From an uncultured Nitrosomonadales bacterium (GTDB lineage: Bacteria; Pseudomonadota; Gammaproteobacteria; Burkholderiales; Methylophilaceae): a DNA stretch of 5,243 nucleotides. The notes beneath the pieces were generated by a model. The model made no database searches. It saw only the letters and a list, made by a program, of their open reading frames with translations, and was not told where the DNA came from. The position numbers and the translations under genes were made by a program. The stretch spans positions 1-5,243 of the forward strand of contig CAMLMA010000126.1 in the NCBI GenBank assembly GCA_946481065.1, read 5' to 3'. Of the stretch, positions 747 to 5,243 are shown in pieces. How positions within the stretch are numbered: the first letter of the stretch is position 1; each line of letters starts with the position of its first letter.

Positions 747-770
747 CTGTAATAGTTCAAACTCGTGCCC

Positions 771-2204
771 ATGCTTCCATCTTATGTTTTGCTCGACCTC
801 GAAACCACCGGAGCGACACCGCTGCGCGACCGTATCACCGAGATCGCGCTGGTGCGATTCGACCACGGTATCGAGACGGCGCGTTGGCAGACGCTGGTGA
901 ATCCCGAAACGCCGATCCCGCCGTTCATCCAGAATCTGACCGGCATCACCGACGAAATGGTGCGCGATGCGCCGACGTTTGCCGAGGTCGCGCCGCTGTT
1001 GCTCGATTACCTGGAGGGCAGCGTACTGGCGGCGCATAACGCACGGTTCGATCACGGCTTTCTCAAGAGCGAGTACAAGCGCATCGGCATCAGCCTGCGG
1101 CAGAAGGTGCTCTGCACCGTGAAGCTTTCGCGCAAGCTCTATCCGGAGCATTACCGTCACGGACTCGACGCCATCATCCAGCGTCACGGTCTGACATGCT
1201 CAGCCAGGCACCGCGCCATGGGCGATGTCGAGATGCTGATCGGTTTTCTGCAGGCGGCGAGCGCAGACTTGGGGATCGAACAGGTCCAGGCCACGGCCGA
1301 GTCACTGATGCGTGGCCCCAGCTTGCCGCCGGGCCTGGATCACACATTGCTGGACGACCTGCCGGAAAGCCCCGGGGTTTACCTGTTCTATGGCGAAAGT
1401 CCGGGTGATGGCCAGCGCCAGGAGGGGCAAGCCCATGCAGGCTACGAGCTGCCGCTTTATATCGGCAAGAGCGTCAATATCCGTAGCCGCGTGCTGTCGC
1501 ATTTCAGCAGCGACCACAGCTCAACCAAGGAGATGCGCATCACCCAGGAGATCAAGCGCGTGGAATGGCGTGAGACTGCAGGCGAGTTCGGGGCCTTGCT
1601 GCTCGAATCAAGGCTGATCAAGGAGATGCAGCCGATCTACAACCGTCGGTTACGCAACGAGCGGCAACTGTGTTCGTGGCGTATCGCCGATACTGCCGAC
1701 ACGCGGCCCCTGGTCACGCTGGTGCGCGAAAGCGAGATCGAGGCGACGATGGTCGGGCAATTGTTCGGCACCTTCCGCAGCAAACGCCAGGCGGTGGAGG
1801 TTCTGCAGCAGATCGCCGAAAACCATGGCCTGTGCGAGAAGCTACTGGGGCTGGAGAACGGCAAGGGCCCGTGCTTCGCCCATCAGTTGCGGCGCTGCAA
1901 GGGCGTTTGTGCAGGCAAGGAGGCGCCAGAGATCCACTACCTGAGATTGCAGCAGGCACTGGCGGCGCACCGGCTGAAAACCTGGCCGTATGAAGGCAGG
2001 ATCGCCCTCCGCGAATATGATTCGGCGTCCAACCAGACGCAGATCCACGTGTTCGAACACTGGTGCCATCTGGTGACGGCCAGCGATGAAGCGACCCTGC
2101 ACGAATCGCTCGAGACCAGGCGTCCGCTGGCGTTCGACCTTGATACCTATAAATTGCTGCTGAAGGAACTACACCGGAACAGGCTGGAGATCATTCGGCT
2201 CTAG
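771..2204 (+). CDS. DnaQ-like exonuclease / GIY-YIG endonuclease fusion (UvrC/Cho-like)
   Basis: A 477-aa two-domain nuclease, often annotated as a DNA polymerase III epsilon-like protein. Residues 5-165 are a DEDDh 3'-5' exonuclease: motif I DLETTG gives D9 and E11, motif II NARFD gives D94, and motif III HRAMGD gives H147 and D152. Residues about 200-295 are a GIY-YIG endonuclease: GVYLFYG at 202-208, YIGKS from 230, the catalytic Glu E279 in ESRLIKEMQP, then IYN. The rest carries a UvrC/Cho-like cysteine cluster (C368, C376, C380 in PCFAHQLRRCKGVC). By analogy to UvrC and Cho it should nick damaged DNA while the exonuclease trims ends; this is inferred. A stretch of about 16 residues at 210-226 (SPGDGQRQEGQAHAGY) separates the GIY and YIG motifs and looks like an insertion. 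The ATG at 771 has no clear Shine-Dalgarno; GTG at 765 is an in-frame alternative. It is a stand-alone gene, divergent from the Sel1 gene. Confidence 0.93.
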   Translation: MLPSYVLLDLETTGATPLRDRITEIALVRFDHGIETARWQTLVNPETPIPPFIQNLTGITDEMVRDAPTFAEVAPLLLDYLEGSVLAAHNARFDHGFLKSEYKRIGISLRQKVLCTVKLSRKLYPEHYRHGLDAIIQRHGLTCSARHRAMGDVEMLIGFLQAASADLGIEQVQATAESLMRGPSLPPGLDHTLLDDLPESPGVYLFYGESPGDGQRQEGQAHAGYELPLYIGKSVNIRSRVLSHFSSDHSSTKEMRITQEIKRVEWRETAGEFGALLLESRLIKEMQPIYNRRLRNERQLCSWRIADTADTRPLVTLVRESEIEATMVGQLFGTFRSKRQAVEVLQQIAENHGLCEKLLGLENGKGPCFAHQLRRCKGVCAGKEAPEIHYLRLQQALAAHRLKTWPYEGRIALREYDSASNQTQIHVFEHWCHLVTASDEATLHESLETRRPLAFDLDTYKLLLKELHRNRLEIIRL

Positions 2205-2316: not shown

Positions 2317-2388
2317 TTAGCGATTGCACACGTACATCGTGACTTCAAAGCCAAAGCGCATTTCAGTAGCGGCTGGTTTGGTCCACAT
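2317..2388 (-). CDS. pqqA: PQQ precursor peptide PqqA, downstream copy
   Basis: A 23-residue peptide, MWTKPAATEMRFGFE then V-T-M-Y-V-C-N-R. It has the family's usual length and keeps the E-V-T-M-Y motif: E15 and Y19 are the two residues that the radical SAM enzyme PqqE joins, with PqqD as peptide chaperone, before the bicyclic PQQ is released and oxidised. The W2, K4-P5 and R11-x-G13 positions match characterised PqqA peptides. The ribosome site AGGAG (2396-2400) is seven bases before the ATG. The peptide is identical to that of the copy at 2553-2624, although the genes differ at nine codons. The stop codon of the 33-aa ORF upstream overlaps this ribosome site, suggesting translational coupling. 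No pqqB-E genes follow; two hairpins do. The identification is firm despite the short length. Confidence 0.93.
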   Translation of the reverse strand: MWTKPAATEMRFGFEVTMYVCNR

Positions 2389-2399
2389 GATGACTCTCC

Positions 2400-2501
2400 T
2401 TATTTAGCGCAGATCGGGCAGGTGCAGTTCCAGAAGTGCTGGAGCGACCACCCGATCTGGTTGGATAACTGGTTAGACTGATTTGAAGAACGATACGTCA
2501 T
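2400..2501 (-). CDS. Putative 33-aa Cys-containing small protein between the two pqqA genes
   Basis: An unrecognised ORF, starting MTYRSSNQ and ending FWNCTCPICAK. It has three S-N-Q triplets (residues 6-8, 9-11, 13-15) and three clustered cysteines (C26, C28, C31, pattern C-x-C-x2-C) that could bind metal or be modified. Its TAA stop overlaps the TAAGGAG ribosome site of the downstream pqqA, as in coupled operon genes. It lies in the same frame as the upstream pqqA: after that gene's TAA, 50 sense codons run without interruption to this stop, and the ATG at 2501 is the first usable start. Against it: only a weak AGG precedes the ATG, and much of the 3' half overlaps a strong RNA hairpin (2410-2459), so the open frame may be a by-product of RNA structure. 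It might be a true small peptide, a coupling leader, or non-coding. Confidence 0.4.
   Translation of the reverse strand: MTYRSSNQSNQLSNQIGWSLQHFWNCTCPICAK
2410..2459 (-). ncRNA. Structured RNA element in the inter-pqqA spacer
   Basis: CAGATCGGG (2410-2418) pairs perfectly with CCCGATCTG (2451-2459). Inside, GGT (2421-2423) pairs with ACC (2447-2449), GC (2424-2425) with GC (2444-2445), and TCCAG (2429-2433) with CTGGA (2439-2443) around an AAGTG loop. This makes about 19 base pairs in one 50-base hairpin just ahead of the ribosome site of the downstream pqqA. It could be a processing site, a brake on transcription or translation, or a stabiliser that sets the ratio of the two pqqA messages. 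No T tract follows on the minus strand, so it is not a plain terminator. It matches no riboswitch class that I recognise. Confidence 0.5.
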
Positions 2502-2518
2502 GATGCCTGAATCATAAC

Positions 2519-2561
2519 AACCTTGGCGGTTGCGCGATTTGACGATGTAACCTTAACGGTT
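2519..2561. repeat. Imperfect 13-bp direct repeat AACCTTnnCGGTT
   Basis: AACCTTGGCGGTT (2519-2531) and AACCTTAACGGTT (2549-2561) are 30 bp apart start to start and differ only at the two central bases. The second contains the stop codon of the upstream pqqA. Each unit is itself a small inverted repeat, AACC/GGTT. It could be a duplicated RNA hairpin or a protein site with a helical spacing of about three turns. Confidence 0.45.
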
Positions 2562-2565
2562 ACAT
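2545..2565 (-). other. Hairpin enclosing the stop codon of the upstream pqqA
   Basis: Perfect 8-bp stem ATGTAACC / GGTTACAT with a 5-base loop that holds the TAA stop of the upstream pqqA. A stem after or across the end of pqqA is a plausible way to limit read-through into downstream genes. The downstream pqqA has only a weaker 5-bp counterpart (CGTGT 2313-2317 / ACACG 2328-2332) around its own stop. Confidence 0.5.
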
Positions 2566-2624
2566 ACATACATCGTTACTTCAAAGCCGAAACGCATTTC
2601 AGTAGCAGCTGGTTTGGTCCACAT
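2553..2624 (-). CDS. pqqA: PQQ precursor peptide PqqA, upstream copy
   Basis: A 23-codon gene encoding the same peptide as the copy at 2317-2388, with E15 and Y19 as the PQQ-forming residues and W2, K4, P5 and R11 conserved. It has the better ribosome site of the two: AAGGAG seven to eight bases before the ATG, in AAGAAGGAGATACATC. Nine codons (6, 11, 12, 16, 19, 20, 21, 22, 23) differ from the other copy, all silently, so the copies are not a recent exact duplication. It is the first gene of the minus-strand unit; the control region up to 2830 lies upstream, shared with the divergent zinc-ribbon gene. No confident -35/-10 could be fixed. The stop codon lies in a hairpin loop. Both copies have a cysteine at position 21, which is not part of the crosslink motif. 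Confidence 0.94.
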   Translation of the reverse strand: MWTKPAATEMRFGFEVTMYVCNR

Positions 2625-2830: not shown

Positions 2831-3046
2831 ATGGATAACAAGTACGGATTAGGTAGCACCAAGGTCGCAACGCATCATCACGAGACGCACCATAAATCGC
2901 CCGAGGCCGAGCTCACCTGCAAGTATTGCGGCGGCCATCACCTGATGATGAGTCAGAGCCTGCACGATCACCGCTGCGCGGATTGCGGCAAATGGCAAGA
3001 GGATGTGGAGATGAACTACTCGACGGGTCGCGCCAGCGACTATTAG
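2831..3046 (+). CDS. Small His-rich zinc-ribbon protein, unknown function
   Basis: A 71-aa protein. Residues 14-21 form a His cluster (THHHETHH), and residues 30-52 form a C-x2-C-x15-C-x2-C zinc ribbon (CKYC at 30-33, CADC at 49-52) with further histidines between the pairs (H37, H38, H46, H48). No signal peptide or membrane segment is visible, so it should be cytoplasmic. Zinc binding by the four cysteines is a fair inference; DNA, RNA or protein binding cannot be told apart. The start at 2831 is chosen for GGAG (2821-2824) six bases upstream and because the ribbon begins soon after. The same frame is open back to GTG 2714, but that extension covers the palindrome and repeat region and looks non-coding. 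The gene is divergent from the pqqA pair, shares its control region, and ends before a bidirectional terminator. Confidence 0.8.
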   Translation: MDNKYGLGSTKVATHHHETHHKSPEAELTCKYCGGHHLMMSQSLHDHRCADCGKWQEDVEMNYSTGRASDY

Positions 3047-3151: not shown

Positions 3152-3520
3152 TCAGCGCTTATCGACTGCCAAGGCCGTCGCGCCGCTGCTCGCCAATAGC
3201 AGGAAGCCGCCGGCGATCGCCAGATCCTTGAGGAACATGATCATCTGCATCTGGTCGCCGAAATTGTTATGGAACAACGCCGCGGCAAGTAAGGTAAAGC
3301 CAGCCAGCAGATACGCCACAAGCCGTGTCTGGAAACCGACGATGATGGCGAGACCGCCCAGCACCTCAAGCAGGATGGTAGGCCACAGCAGGATAGCGGG
3401 CAGACCGACAGACCCCATATAAGCTGTCGTGCCCGCCGGGTCGTTGAATTTGCCGATGCCGGCGATCACGAAGATCAGGGCCAGCAGGATACGGCCTGCC
3501 AGATGTGCGTACTTTGCCAT
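3152..3520 (-). CDS. DoxX-family membrane protein
   Basis: A 122-aa inner-membrane protein with four predicted hydrophobic helices at about residues 8-22, 41-62, 66-84 and 96-112. The family signature is clear: GRILLALIFVIAGIGKF near the N-terminus, YMGSVGLP at 34-41, LEVLGGLAIIVGF at 51-63, and FLKDLAIAGGFLLL at 96-109. DoxX-type proteins are small four-helix membrane proteins. Some are tied to quinone or thiosulfate redox chemistry or to oxidative stress, but most members of this YqjF-like branch have no proven substrate. The start at 3520 is set by GGAGG seven bases upstream. The gene is monocistronic, divergent from mocA and ended by the 3112-3140 terminator. Length is normal for the family. 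Confidence 0.9.
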   Translation of the reverse strand: MAKYAHLAGRILLALIFVIAGIGKFNDPAGTTAYMGSVGLPAILLWPTILLEVLGGLAIIVGFQTRLVAYLLAGFTLLAAALFHNNFGDQMQMIMFLKDLAIAGGFLLLASSGATALAVDKR

Positions 3521-3635: not shown

Positions 3636-4223
3636 ATGCACATCATCGGTATCCTGCTGGCAGGCGGCCATTCGCGCCGTTTCGGCAGCAATAAACTCCT
3701 GCATCCCATGGCGGACGGGCAACCCGTTGCGCTGGTTGCGGCACGCCACTTGTTGGCAGCCTTGCCGCATTCGATCGCGATCGTCCGTGACGACACTCCA
3801 CTGGGCAACCTACTCAAGGCGGCGGGCATGCAAGTGATCGAGTGCACGACAGCCCAACAAGGCATGGGCGACAGTCTGGCGGCCGCAGTGCGCTTTGCCG
3901 CCGCGCAGGGTGAGGTCGATGGCTTCGTCATTGCGCTGGCGGATATGCCTTATATCCAGCCACAGACCATCACCGCAGTGGCCGATGCATTGGCTGGCGG
4001 CGCCGGCATCGCGCTACCGGTCCATGCCGGCCAGCGTGGCCATCCGGTGGGGTTTGCCGCGAGGTTCTCAGATGCACTGCAAGCCCTGGCTGGGGATGAG
4101 GGCGCGCGTGCCATCGTGCAGGCAAACCGGTCGATGGTCCTGGAGATCGCCGTCGAGGATGCGGGGGTACTGCGCGATATCGATTATCCGACCGATCTAC
4201 AGGCCGATCCGGCTGCAGACTGA
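3636..4223 (+). CDS. mocA: MocA-like molybdenum cofactor cytidylyltransferase
   Basis: A 195-aa nucleotidyltransferase of the MobA/MocA fold, predicted to join CTP to molybdopterin-Mo to give molybdopterin cytosine dinucleotide, the cofactor of xanthine-oxidase-family enzymes. The nucleotide-binding loop is LAGGHSRRFGSNKLL (residues 8-22); QQGMGDSL (75-82), the metal-binding ADMP (102-105), GHPVGF (135-140), GDEGAR (153-158) and the C-terminal DIDYPTDL (181-188) follow in family order. Length matches MocA (about 190 aa). The second loop residue is G where many MocA proteins have A (LAAG), so CTP specificity is inferred from overall pattern and from XdhC next door rather than from one residue. 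MobA (GTP) is the main alternative. No strong ribosome site precedes the ATG at 3636. The gene converges on xdhC. Confidence 0.85.
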   Translation: MHIIGILLAGGHSRRFGSNKLLHPMADGQPVALVAARHLLAALPHSIAIVRDDTPLGNLLKAAGMQVIECTTAQQGMGDSLAAAVRFAAAQGEVDGFVIALADMPYIQPQTITAVADALAGGAGIALPVHAGQRGHPVGFAARFSDALQALAGDEGARAIVQANRSMVLEIAVEDAGVLRDIDYPTDLQADPAAD

Positions 4224-4298: not shown

Positions 4299-5243
4299 TC
4301 AGCTCGCGCAACTACGCGCCATGGTCTTGGCGGCAGCCTGCGTGTAATCGCTGGACTCTGCCGCCGCCGCGCGTTGCTGGGTACGTACCTGGATCAGCTC
4401 GGCGAGGATCGCCACGGCGATCTCGGCTGGGGTACGGCTGCCGATGGGCAGGCCGACCGGGCCGCGCAGACGGGCGATCTCGCTTTCGTTAAGGTCGAAC
4501 ATGCGCATGCGTTCGCGGCGCTTCTCCTGGTTCTTGCGTGAGCCGAGCGCGCCAACGTAGAAGGCATCGCATTTCAGGGCTTCCAGCAGCGCCATGTCGT
4601 CGAGCTTGGGGTCATGGGTGACGGCGACGATGGCCGTGTGGGCATCCGGCTGCAATTCCAGCACCACATCGTCTGGCATGCCATGGCACCAGGTCGCGCC
4701 ATCGACATGCCATTCGGCACGCATGGTTTCGCGCGGGTCGCAGATCAGCACATCGAAATCCAGCGCCTGTGCCATGCTCGCCAGTACCGTGCCAAGCTGG
4801 TTGGCGCCGATGATGAGCAGACGCCATTGCGGGCCGAAATAGCTATGGAACCATTCGCCGTCGAGACTGGGTGCGCTTCCGGGTAGGGCTTCAGCCAGTC
4901 GGCATTCACCTGTTCCCAATTTGACAGAACGCTTGATCAGCTTGCGTTGTTGCATGCCATGCATGATCTGCATGAGCGCCACACTGTCACGCAGGGGTTC
5001 GGCGAAGATCAGCAGGCGACCGCCGCAGGGGATGCCGAAGCGTTGCGCTTCATCGCGGCTGACGCCGTACTCGATGAGCGAGGCGTTCTCGGGCAACTGG
5101 CCATGGCGCGCCTTGTCGGCCAGGTCGTCCTCGATGCAGCCGCCCGACACCGAACCGACCAGATGGCCGTCGTCGCGGATGGCGAGCACCGCACCGGGCA
5201 GGCGCGGGGCCGAACCCCAGGTCTGCACCACGGTGAACAGGTG
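4299..5243 (-). CDS. xdhC: XdhC/CoxI-family molybdoenzyme maturation factor, N-terminus cut by window edge
   Basis: 314 residues are visible; the frame is open to the window edge (HLFTVVQTWGSAPR), so the true start lies upstream and perhaps 15-30 residues are missing. The GTG codons at 5231 and 5228 fall inside the conserved TVV.TWGS.PR motif and are not starts. Residues 1-80 form the XdhC/CoxI domain, with GSVSGGC (30-36) and IPCGG (71-75) holding conserved cysteines. Residues about 140-285 form the Rossmann XdhC_C domain, with IIGANQLG (144-151), VTHDPKLDD, YVGALGSRKN and LPIGSRTPAEIA (265-276). XdhC proteins bind the molybdenum cofactor, support its sulfuration and pass it to xanthine-dehydrogenase-like apoenzymes in the cytoplasm. 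The last 30 residues are an Ala/Ser/Gln-rich tail beyond the domain. It converges on mocA, which makes the dinucleotide form of the same cofactor. Confidence 0.93.
   Translation of the reverse strand, partial: HLFTVVQTWGSAPRLPGAVLAIRDDGHLVGSVSGGCIEDDLADKARHGQLPENASLIEYGVSRDEAQRFGIPCGGRLLIFAEPLRDSVALMQIMHGMQQRKLIKRSVKLGTGECRLAEALPGSAPSLDGEWFHSYFGPQWRLLIIGANQLGTVLASMAQALDFDVLICDPRETMRAEWHVDGATWCHGMPDDVVLELQPDAHTAIVAVTHDPKLDDMALLEALKCDAFYVGALGSRKNQEKRRERMRMFDLNESEIARLRGPVGLPIGSRTPAEIAVAILAELIQVRTQQRAAAAESSDYTQAAAKTMARSCAS

Follow-up and report, generated by a model that had tools for sequence, protein, structure and literature searches.

The window analysed here, a 5,243-nucleotide stretch of DNA, carries on its minus strand two copies of pqqA, and the 164 bases separating them contain a third ORF of 33 codons (2400–2501). 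The earlier note on this DNA was right about the pair itself, but the three-gene unit was overlooked, and the middle gene is its unusual part. By its homologues, the middle ORF belongs to an undescribed family of 24–40-aa peptides. In the reading that we prefer, and to which we give an even chance, the locus is a pqqA–peptide–pqqA operon whose middle product would be a free, metal-binding Cys3His peptide resembling the zinc finger of PqqB.

Both pqqA copies, the upstream one at 2553–2624 (−) and the downstream one at 2317–2388 (−), translate to the same 23-residue peptide, MWTKPAATEMRFGFEVTMYVCNR, and each scores 45.1 bits against TIGR02107 (cut-off 20) and 42.4 bits against PF08042 (cut-off 21.1), which places them in the PqqA family. 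Each contains, as E15-VTM-Y19, the E-x3-Y residues from which PQQ is made. A Shine–Dalgarno sequence, AAGGAG, lies 7 nt 5′ of each ATG—that is, at 2632–2637 (−) for the upstream copy and at 2396–2401 (−) for the downstream copy, where, by sequence and spacing, it overlaps the stop codon of the middle gene. Of the 72 bases, 9 differ between the copies, in every case silently and at a third codon position (codons 6, 11, 12, 16, 19, 20, 21, 22, and 23). The tandem pair as first described is exact in coordinates and translation. The two copies are real and ordinary for Methylophilaceae. No pqqBCDE gene was found among the eight window ORFs scanned with Pfam and NCBIfam profiles; a pair without adjoining pqqBCDE is normal for extra copies, adjacency being no requirement of the PqqA family.

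The age of the pair can be judged from locus L001 (uncultured Methylotenera), the nearest relative found, which has the same pqqA pair in the same place and an exonuclease gene 88% identical at the protein level, a match that assigns the window to Methylophilaceae. At codons 6, 11, and 12, the upstream and downstream copies differ alike in the window and in L001, and the pair is thus older than the split between the two; a recent duplication is ruled out, and the earlier suggestion that the duplication is old and the peptide strongly selected is borne out. Between the window and L001, the upstream pqqA orthologues are 5 bases apart and the downstream ones 4, with between-copy differences of 9 bases in the window and 5 in L001. 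When both window copies were recoded at random with synonymous codons, drawn according to codon usage in five genes of the window (one of them partial), a mean of 10.06 codons (sd 2.07) differed, against 9 observed (P(≥9) = 0.78), so that silent sites are near saturation and the peptide is under purifying selection. Furthermore, in six genomes (G001–G006; 32 pqqA copies out of 45 matches above the cut-off), 54 pairs of same-genome paralogues encoding identical peptides, nearly all dispersed and one tandem, were 0–12 bases apart, stop codon included. Thus, selection against DNA identity, which had been offered as the other explanation of the nine differences, is unneeded and was dropped.

Matches to pqqA were found in 185 of 187 Methylophilaceae genomes, with 1–12 in each (E ≤ 0.01). 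Excerpts of PMC4109929 give 3–12 pqqA copies for each of nine Methylophilaceae strains, in which the other pqq genes are single-copy save for an extra pqqDE in one strain, in agreement with the previous statement that extra copies are known in methylotrophs. Excerpts of PMC11317620, citing Ge et al., describe PqqA availability as rate-determining in Methylovorus MP688. As in the window, these multi-copy systems have several copies that are mostly far from pqqBCDE and whose PqqA peptides are identical or almost so; unlike for the window locus, the copy counts in the excerpts of PMC4109929 come without mention of a middle peptide gene or trio.

The middle gene of the window, 2400–2501 (−), encodes 33 residues, MTYRSSNQSNQLSNQIGWSLQHFWNCTCPICAK, with the motif H-x3-C-x-C-P-x-C within ...HFWNCTCPICAK, and its existence is well supported by homologues and by the pattern of substitution among them. 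The H at −4 (counted from the first Cys) and CxCPxC were present in 41 of 41 profile hits (36 from 34 Methylophilaceae genomes and five from a second family); of 37 distinct peptides, a set gathered by a pattern already demanding W, H, and CxCPxC, 35 have W at −7 and 29 have it at −2. Pooled over four gap-free groups with 26 sequences and 82 pairs, dN/dS was 0.294 in frame, as compared to 0.99 and 1.08 in the shifted frames, and the codons for the three Cys residues and the Pro residue vary silently among relatives. A 31-aa subgroup of six sequences is an exception, its in-frame value being 0.66 and that of one shifted frame 0.40. Overall, the middle gene evolves as a protein, with this one subgroup that misfits. 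The homologue in L001 has 29 aa, four codons (12 nt) fewer than in the window. No match to the window peptide was found in Pfam, NCBIfam, PHROGs, or the PDB. A 43-residue reading of one member yielded one candidate and one match among 5.77 billion predicted proteins, in a search reaching only relatives that share exact 5-residue words; gene callers thus seem to miss the gene. In open-licence PMC literature, no mention of a Cys peptide encoded between two pqqA copies was found. As a separate observation, a strong hairpin is predicted within the ORF (window ~2408–2459, −), with outer arms that, as judged by eye, are mostly conserved in L001; folding of the five other trios gave nothing similar, and its z-score against shuffled sequence was −1.0.

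A search of the 187 Methylophilaceae genomes with a 19-row alignment detected the peptide gene in 34 (E ≤ 1e-6); 59 matched at E ≤ 0.1, the 25 of these at E 0.005–0.1 being taken as chance. The other 153 have no clear copy, where so short a gene may be missed, and the peptide is thus not general for PQQ makers. In 28 of the 34 bearing genomes—the 22 trio genomes together with G047, G088, G089, G093, G099, and G121—a peptide copy has a pqqA no more than 300 nt away, with chance proximity estimated at ~0.1–0.2% per locus (for genomes of 1.3 Mb with about three pqqA each). By pattern search, no pqqA lies within 300 nt in the other six (G086, G094, G095, G098, G100, and G101); one G094 peptide copy and the second G099 copy are close to the end of a contig, and the open frame of the G095 match lacks a Met. 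Two pqqA starts lie 165–225 nt apart in 25 of the 187 genomes by the same kind of search, and 22 of the 25 pairs enclose an intact peptide ORF. In G016, G018, and G028 (loci L215, L216, and L224), both pqqA and the spacer length have been kept and the middle gene has decayed to a remnant, one frame of which resembles the first half of the peptide and ends AEITDWFT or AEITDWFI before a stop codon, with no ATG, no CxCPxC ORF, and, in G018, a further stop.

Spacing within the units is tight: with start codons as chosen by us, the interval from the stop of the upstream pqqA to the start of the peptide gene is 2–17 nt in 23 distinct trios (51 nt in the window) and −1, 4, and 4 nt in the pqqA–peptide loci L175, L203, and L204, and the second pqqA of the trios starts 10–30 nt 3′ of the peptide stop. 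Comparison of the loci thus establishes gene order, tight spacing, a conserved peptide, and, on the whole, coding-type evolution of the middle gene. Apart from the trios, in eight Methylophilaceae genomes with small assemblies (0.8–1.4 Mb), the ORF preceding a peptide copy is a different one, of about 54–60 aa (loci L170, L171, L172, L173, L130, L178, L179, L186, and L187), which ends FVCxQxDxxCWxRxxSAxxDC[VI], with R replacing Q in one locus. This ORF has no Pfam match below E 0.1; one member has 58 database relatives, unnamed or hypothetical, two of which are labelled Candidatus Methylopumilus planktonicus.

The peptide also occurs in a second lineage. In a class sample of 274 genomes, the two matches were G001, the genome nearest to the window, and G732, the sole match outside the family set, which has nine pqqA matches and the same pqqA–peptide–pqqA trio. 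The gammaproteobacterial family of G732, which may be Methylophaga-like, has the peptide in 5 of 57 genomes (E ≤ 0.01; all five E ≤ 1.3e-9). There, the peptide starts 2 or 4 nt after a pqqA in five of five, and in three of them a second pqqA follows, encoding the same PqqA with 4 to 6 silent differences. The 16S sequence of one genome of this family, G891 (about 780 bases), is 82–84% identical to those of three Methylophilaceae. In draws from the order and the phylum, in which, as in the class draw, only the best 20–29 first-look candidates per genome were scored, 6 of 399 genomes matched, all six within the 187 of the family search, and 2 of 398 matched (G001 and G1174), respectively. The G1174 match (E 7e-4; L236, 1414–1623, +) reads FGHTLACTCPIC, with the H and the Cys motif; the stretch has no Met before the motif in the open frame, lies antisense to a 348-aa ORF, and has no pqqA start pattern in the 3 kb of its locus; it is taken as a probable chance match rather than a family member. 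Viral carriage of the peptide is unsupported, the strict HxWxCTCPIC codon pattern having been found in no viral contig.

The peptide has a likeness to PqqB. According to excerpts of PMC2294125, a zinc finger unique to PqqB holds zinc through C19, C21, C24, and N272. The N-terminal stretch of PqqB, ...GGGFPQWNCNCxNC, has W-x-C-x-C-x-x-C in common with the peptide (hhalign E 1.5e-4, probability 52%, over 13 columns only). With the chosen starts, 12 of the 37 distinct peptides have their first Cys at residue 19, as does PqqB (C19), and another 19 have it at residue 21. Among 53 other CxCxxC sites, taken as a control from ORFs of at least 60 aa in the fetched loci, W stands at −2 in one and F at −5 in none. 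In the canonical order pqqA–pqqB, pqqB starts 100–177 nt after pqqA at the four junctions seen, so that the peptide sits where the finger of PqqB would begin. The PqqB finger (PDB 1xto and 3jxp) and the peptide share their Cys spacing, a similar distance from the start, and a place after pqqA. In contrast, PqqB has about 300 aa and a metallo-hydrolase fold, whereas the peptide has 24–40 aa (33 in the window), carries a His at −4 from the first Cys, and has no GGGFPQ stretch. Beyond the 13 matched columns, the two differ, and descent from PqqB is unproven. Small zinc-binding proteins of the YnfU type likewise have Cys metal ligands in a tiny protein; the YnfU-family model NF038384 (NCBIfam) weakly matched one relative (E 0.059, 13 bits vs a cut-off of 36) and did not match the window peptide, which by this cut-off is not a member.

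A candidate control box precedes the trio at 2723–2756 (−), 132 nt before the first pqqA, and consists of TCATGAAAATCATGA (2742–2756) and a perfect palindrome, CCGATTCATGAATCGG (2723–2738), which is conserved in L001. The pattern TMAKGA-N3-TMMBKA, tuned on the same data in which it was counted, lies 110–175 nt upstream of 48 among 68 non-redundant pqqA copies that are single or first, of none of 15 second trio copies, and of 4 of 177 other ORFs; the 68 include the second pqqA of the window, which was misclassed because of its longer spacer and has no box. The untuned TCATGANNNTCATGA, with at most two mismatches, was found in 33 of 104 regions, as compared to 1.2% of base-shuffled regions, the 104 being redundant and five of the 33 matches being seeds. 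A box before the first or single pqqA and not before the second fits one control region per trio. Most pqqA copies of the second family have no TMAKGA-N3-TMMBKA box, and a variant, TCAGGAAAATCCTGA, precedes three of them. At the G086 locus without pqqA, a box lies 344 nt before the peptide; four other pqqA-less loci with enough sequence have none. This shared inverted-repeat box before scattered pqqA copies suggests a pqqA regulon. A sigma-70-type scan of the minus strand at 2200–2860 found no promoter-like site. Behind the second pqqA, an inverted repeat, AACGGGAGCC-TCT-GGCTCCCGTT (2234–2256, −), whose stem is kept in the alignment with L001, is a candidate 3′-end hairpin; it has no T-run and was not called as an intrinsic terminator in terminator scoring.

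The middle ORF might, instead of encoding a working peptide, act through its own translation—that is, as a nascent-chain sensor of metal or cysteine controlling the second pqqA, in the way that CruR/CutF (DUF2946) act for copper. We consider this unlikely. It draws on the Cys motif close to the C-terminus, on a stop codon that overlaps or closely precedes the second Shine–Dalgarno sequence, 10–30 nt from the ATG, and on the existence of copper-sensing upstream ORFs with Cys motifs, as described in excerpts of PMC9426467 and PMC9973294; CruR/CutF are likewise small Cys-motif ORFs in an operon with the regulated gene. However, no pqqA lies downstream of the peptide in L111, L115, L116, L118, L175, L203, L204, and the pqqA-less loci, and in the trios the middle ORF follows a pqqA rather than coming first. 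A convergent neighbour lies behind the peptide in L169, L170, L172, L173, and L187, and the peptide, unlike CruR/CutF, often has no same-strand gene close behind it, a position that does not match theirs. It has about 30 aa, as compared to 145 residues in CruR, and inspection of the 37 distinct peptides by eye showed no RAPP-like or proline-rich arrest end. A common RNA structure or attenuator between the genes is unsupported in the six trios folded (z −1.0, 0.2, 1.2, 0.9, −0.1, and 1.1), and the two Rfam matches in the window both lie outside the trio and under the gathering score.

Less probable still is that the peptide is a RiPP precursor for a cofactor or metallophore, modified at its Cys-rich C-terminal end. 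Small RiPP precursors are of similar length and have a C-terminal Cys core, and the gene adjoins that of a RiPP precursor, pqqA, both of which would fit; against this, MbnB/DUF692 (PF05114), the one modifying-enzyme family searched for, occurs in just 7 of the 38 genomes that bear the peptide, which disfavours an MbnB-type RiPP and, overall, a methanobactin- or bufferin-type system, G001 being among the seven bearers. Least probable, and very unlikely, is that the locus holds nothing beyond two pqqA, the middle ORF having arisen by chance or being a decaying remnant in a spacer. The decay in three genomes and the subgroup lacking a dN/dS signal would be expected on such a reading, but the pooled dN/dS of 0.29, the invariance of H and CxCPxC across two families, the change in length between the window and L001 by whole codons, and the keeping of the motif in copies away from pqqA all argue for a gene.

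In the preferred reading, the locus would be a three-gene PQQ-precursor operon—pqqA, the gene for a 24–40-aa Cys/His peptide, and mostly a second pqqA—under one upstream control region, with a single transcript spanning all three genes. The two pqqA copies would add to the dose of PqqA precursor; the middle gene would be translated with PqqA, and its product would bind one metal ion, most likely zinc, via one His and three Cys. Resembling, as a stand-alone product, the zinc finger at the N-terminus of PqqB, the free peptide may work with the PQQ pathway by partnering PqqB or the enzymes that handle PqqA, or by carrying metal to them, and would be more than a mere leader of the second pqqA. Metal binding, the identity of the metal, and the partner of the peptide are what we infer from sequence comparison. 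A wider proposal, tentative and given somewhat less than an even chance, is that the peptide is an unrecognised part of the PQQ system, mimicking the PqqB finger, co-translated with PqqA, acting in PQQ maturation or its metal control in methylotrophs, and encoded on a cassette carried between lineages under the shared box.

PQQ feeds methanol dehydrogenases, lanthanide-dependent ones included. For the question of why methylotrophs keep many pqqA copies, a conserved, linked peptide gene provides a concrete target. If the peptide binds metal, the supply of PQQ precursor would be linked to metal status, and the shared upstream box would turn the scattered pqqA copies into a testable regulon.

Several other genes of the window were noted. 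Divergent from the trio, a 71-aa ORF at 2831–3046 (+) has two CxxC pairs and is zinc-ribbon-like by eye; it matches nothing in Pfam or NCBIfam at E ≤ 0.001. A DoxX-type membrane protein is encoded at 3152–3520 (−) and has a sub-threshold match to HvfX, of copper-RiPP maturation (37.8 bits vs 80). The gene for a MobA/MocA-like nucleotidyltransferase at 3636–4223 (+) adjoins that for an XdhC-like protein at 4299–5231 (−), and proteins of these two kinds are the usual helpers of molybdenum hydroxylases. At 765–2204 (+), a DnaQ-type exonuclease is joined to a UvrC/Cho-like part; a pqqA within about 0.9 kb of a DnaQ-type exonuclease gene is also found in L002, L004, L005, and L006.
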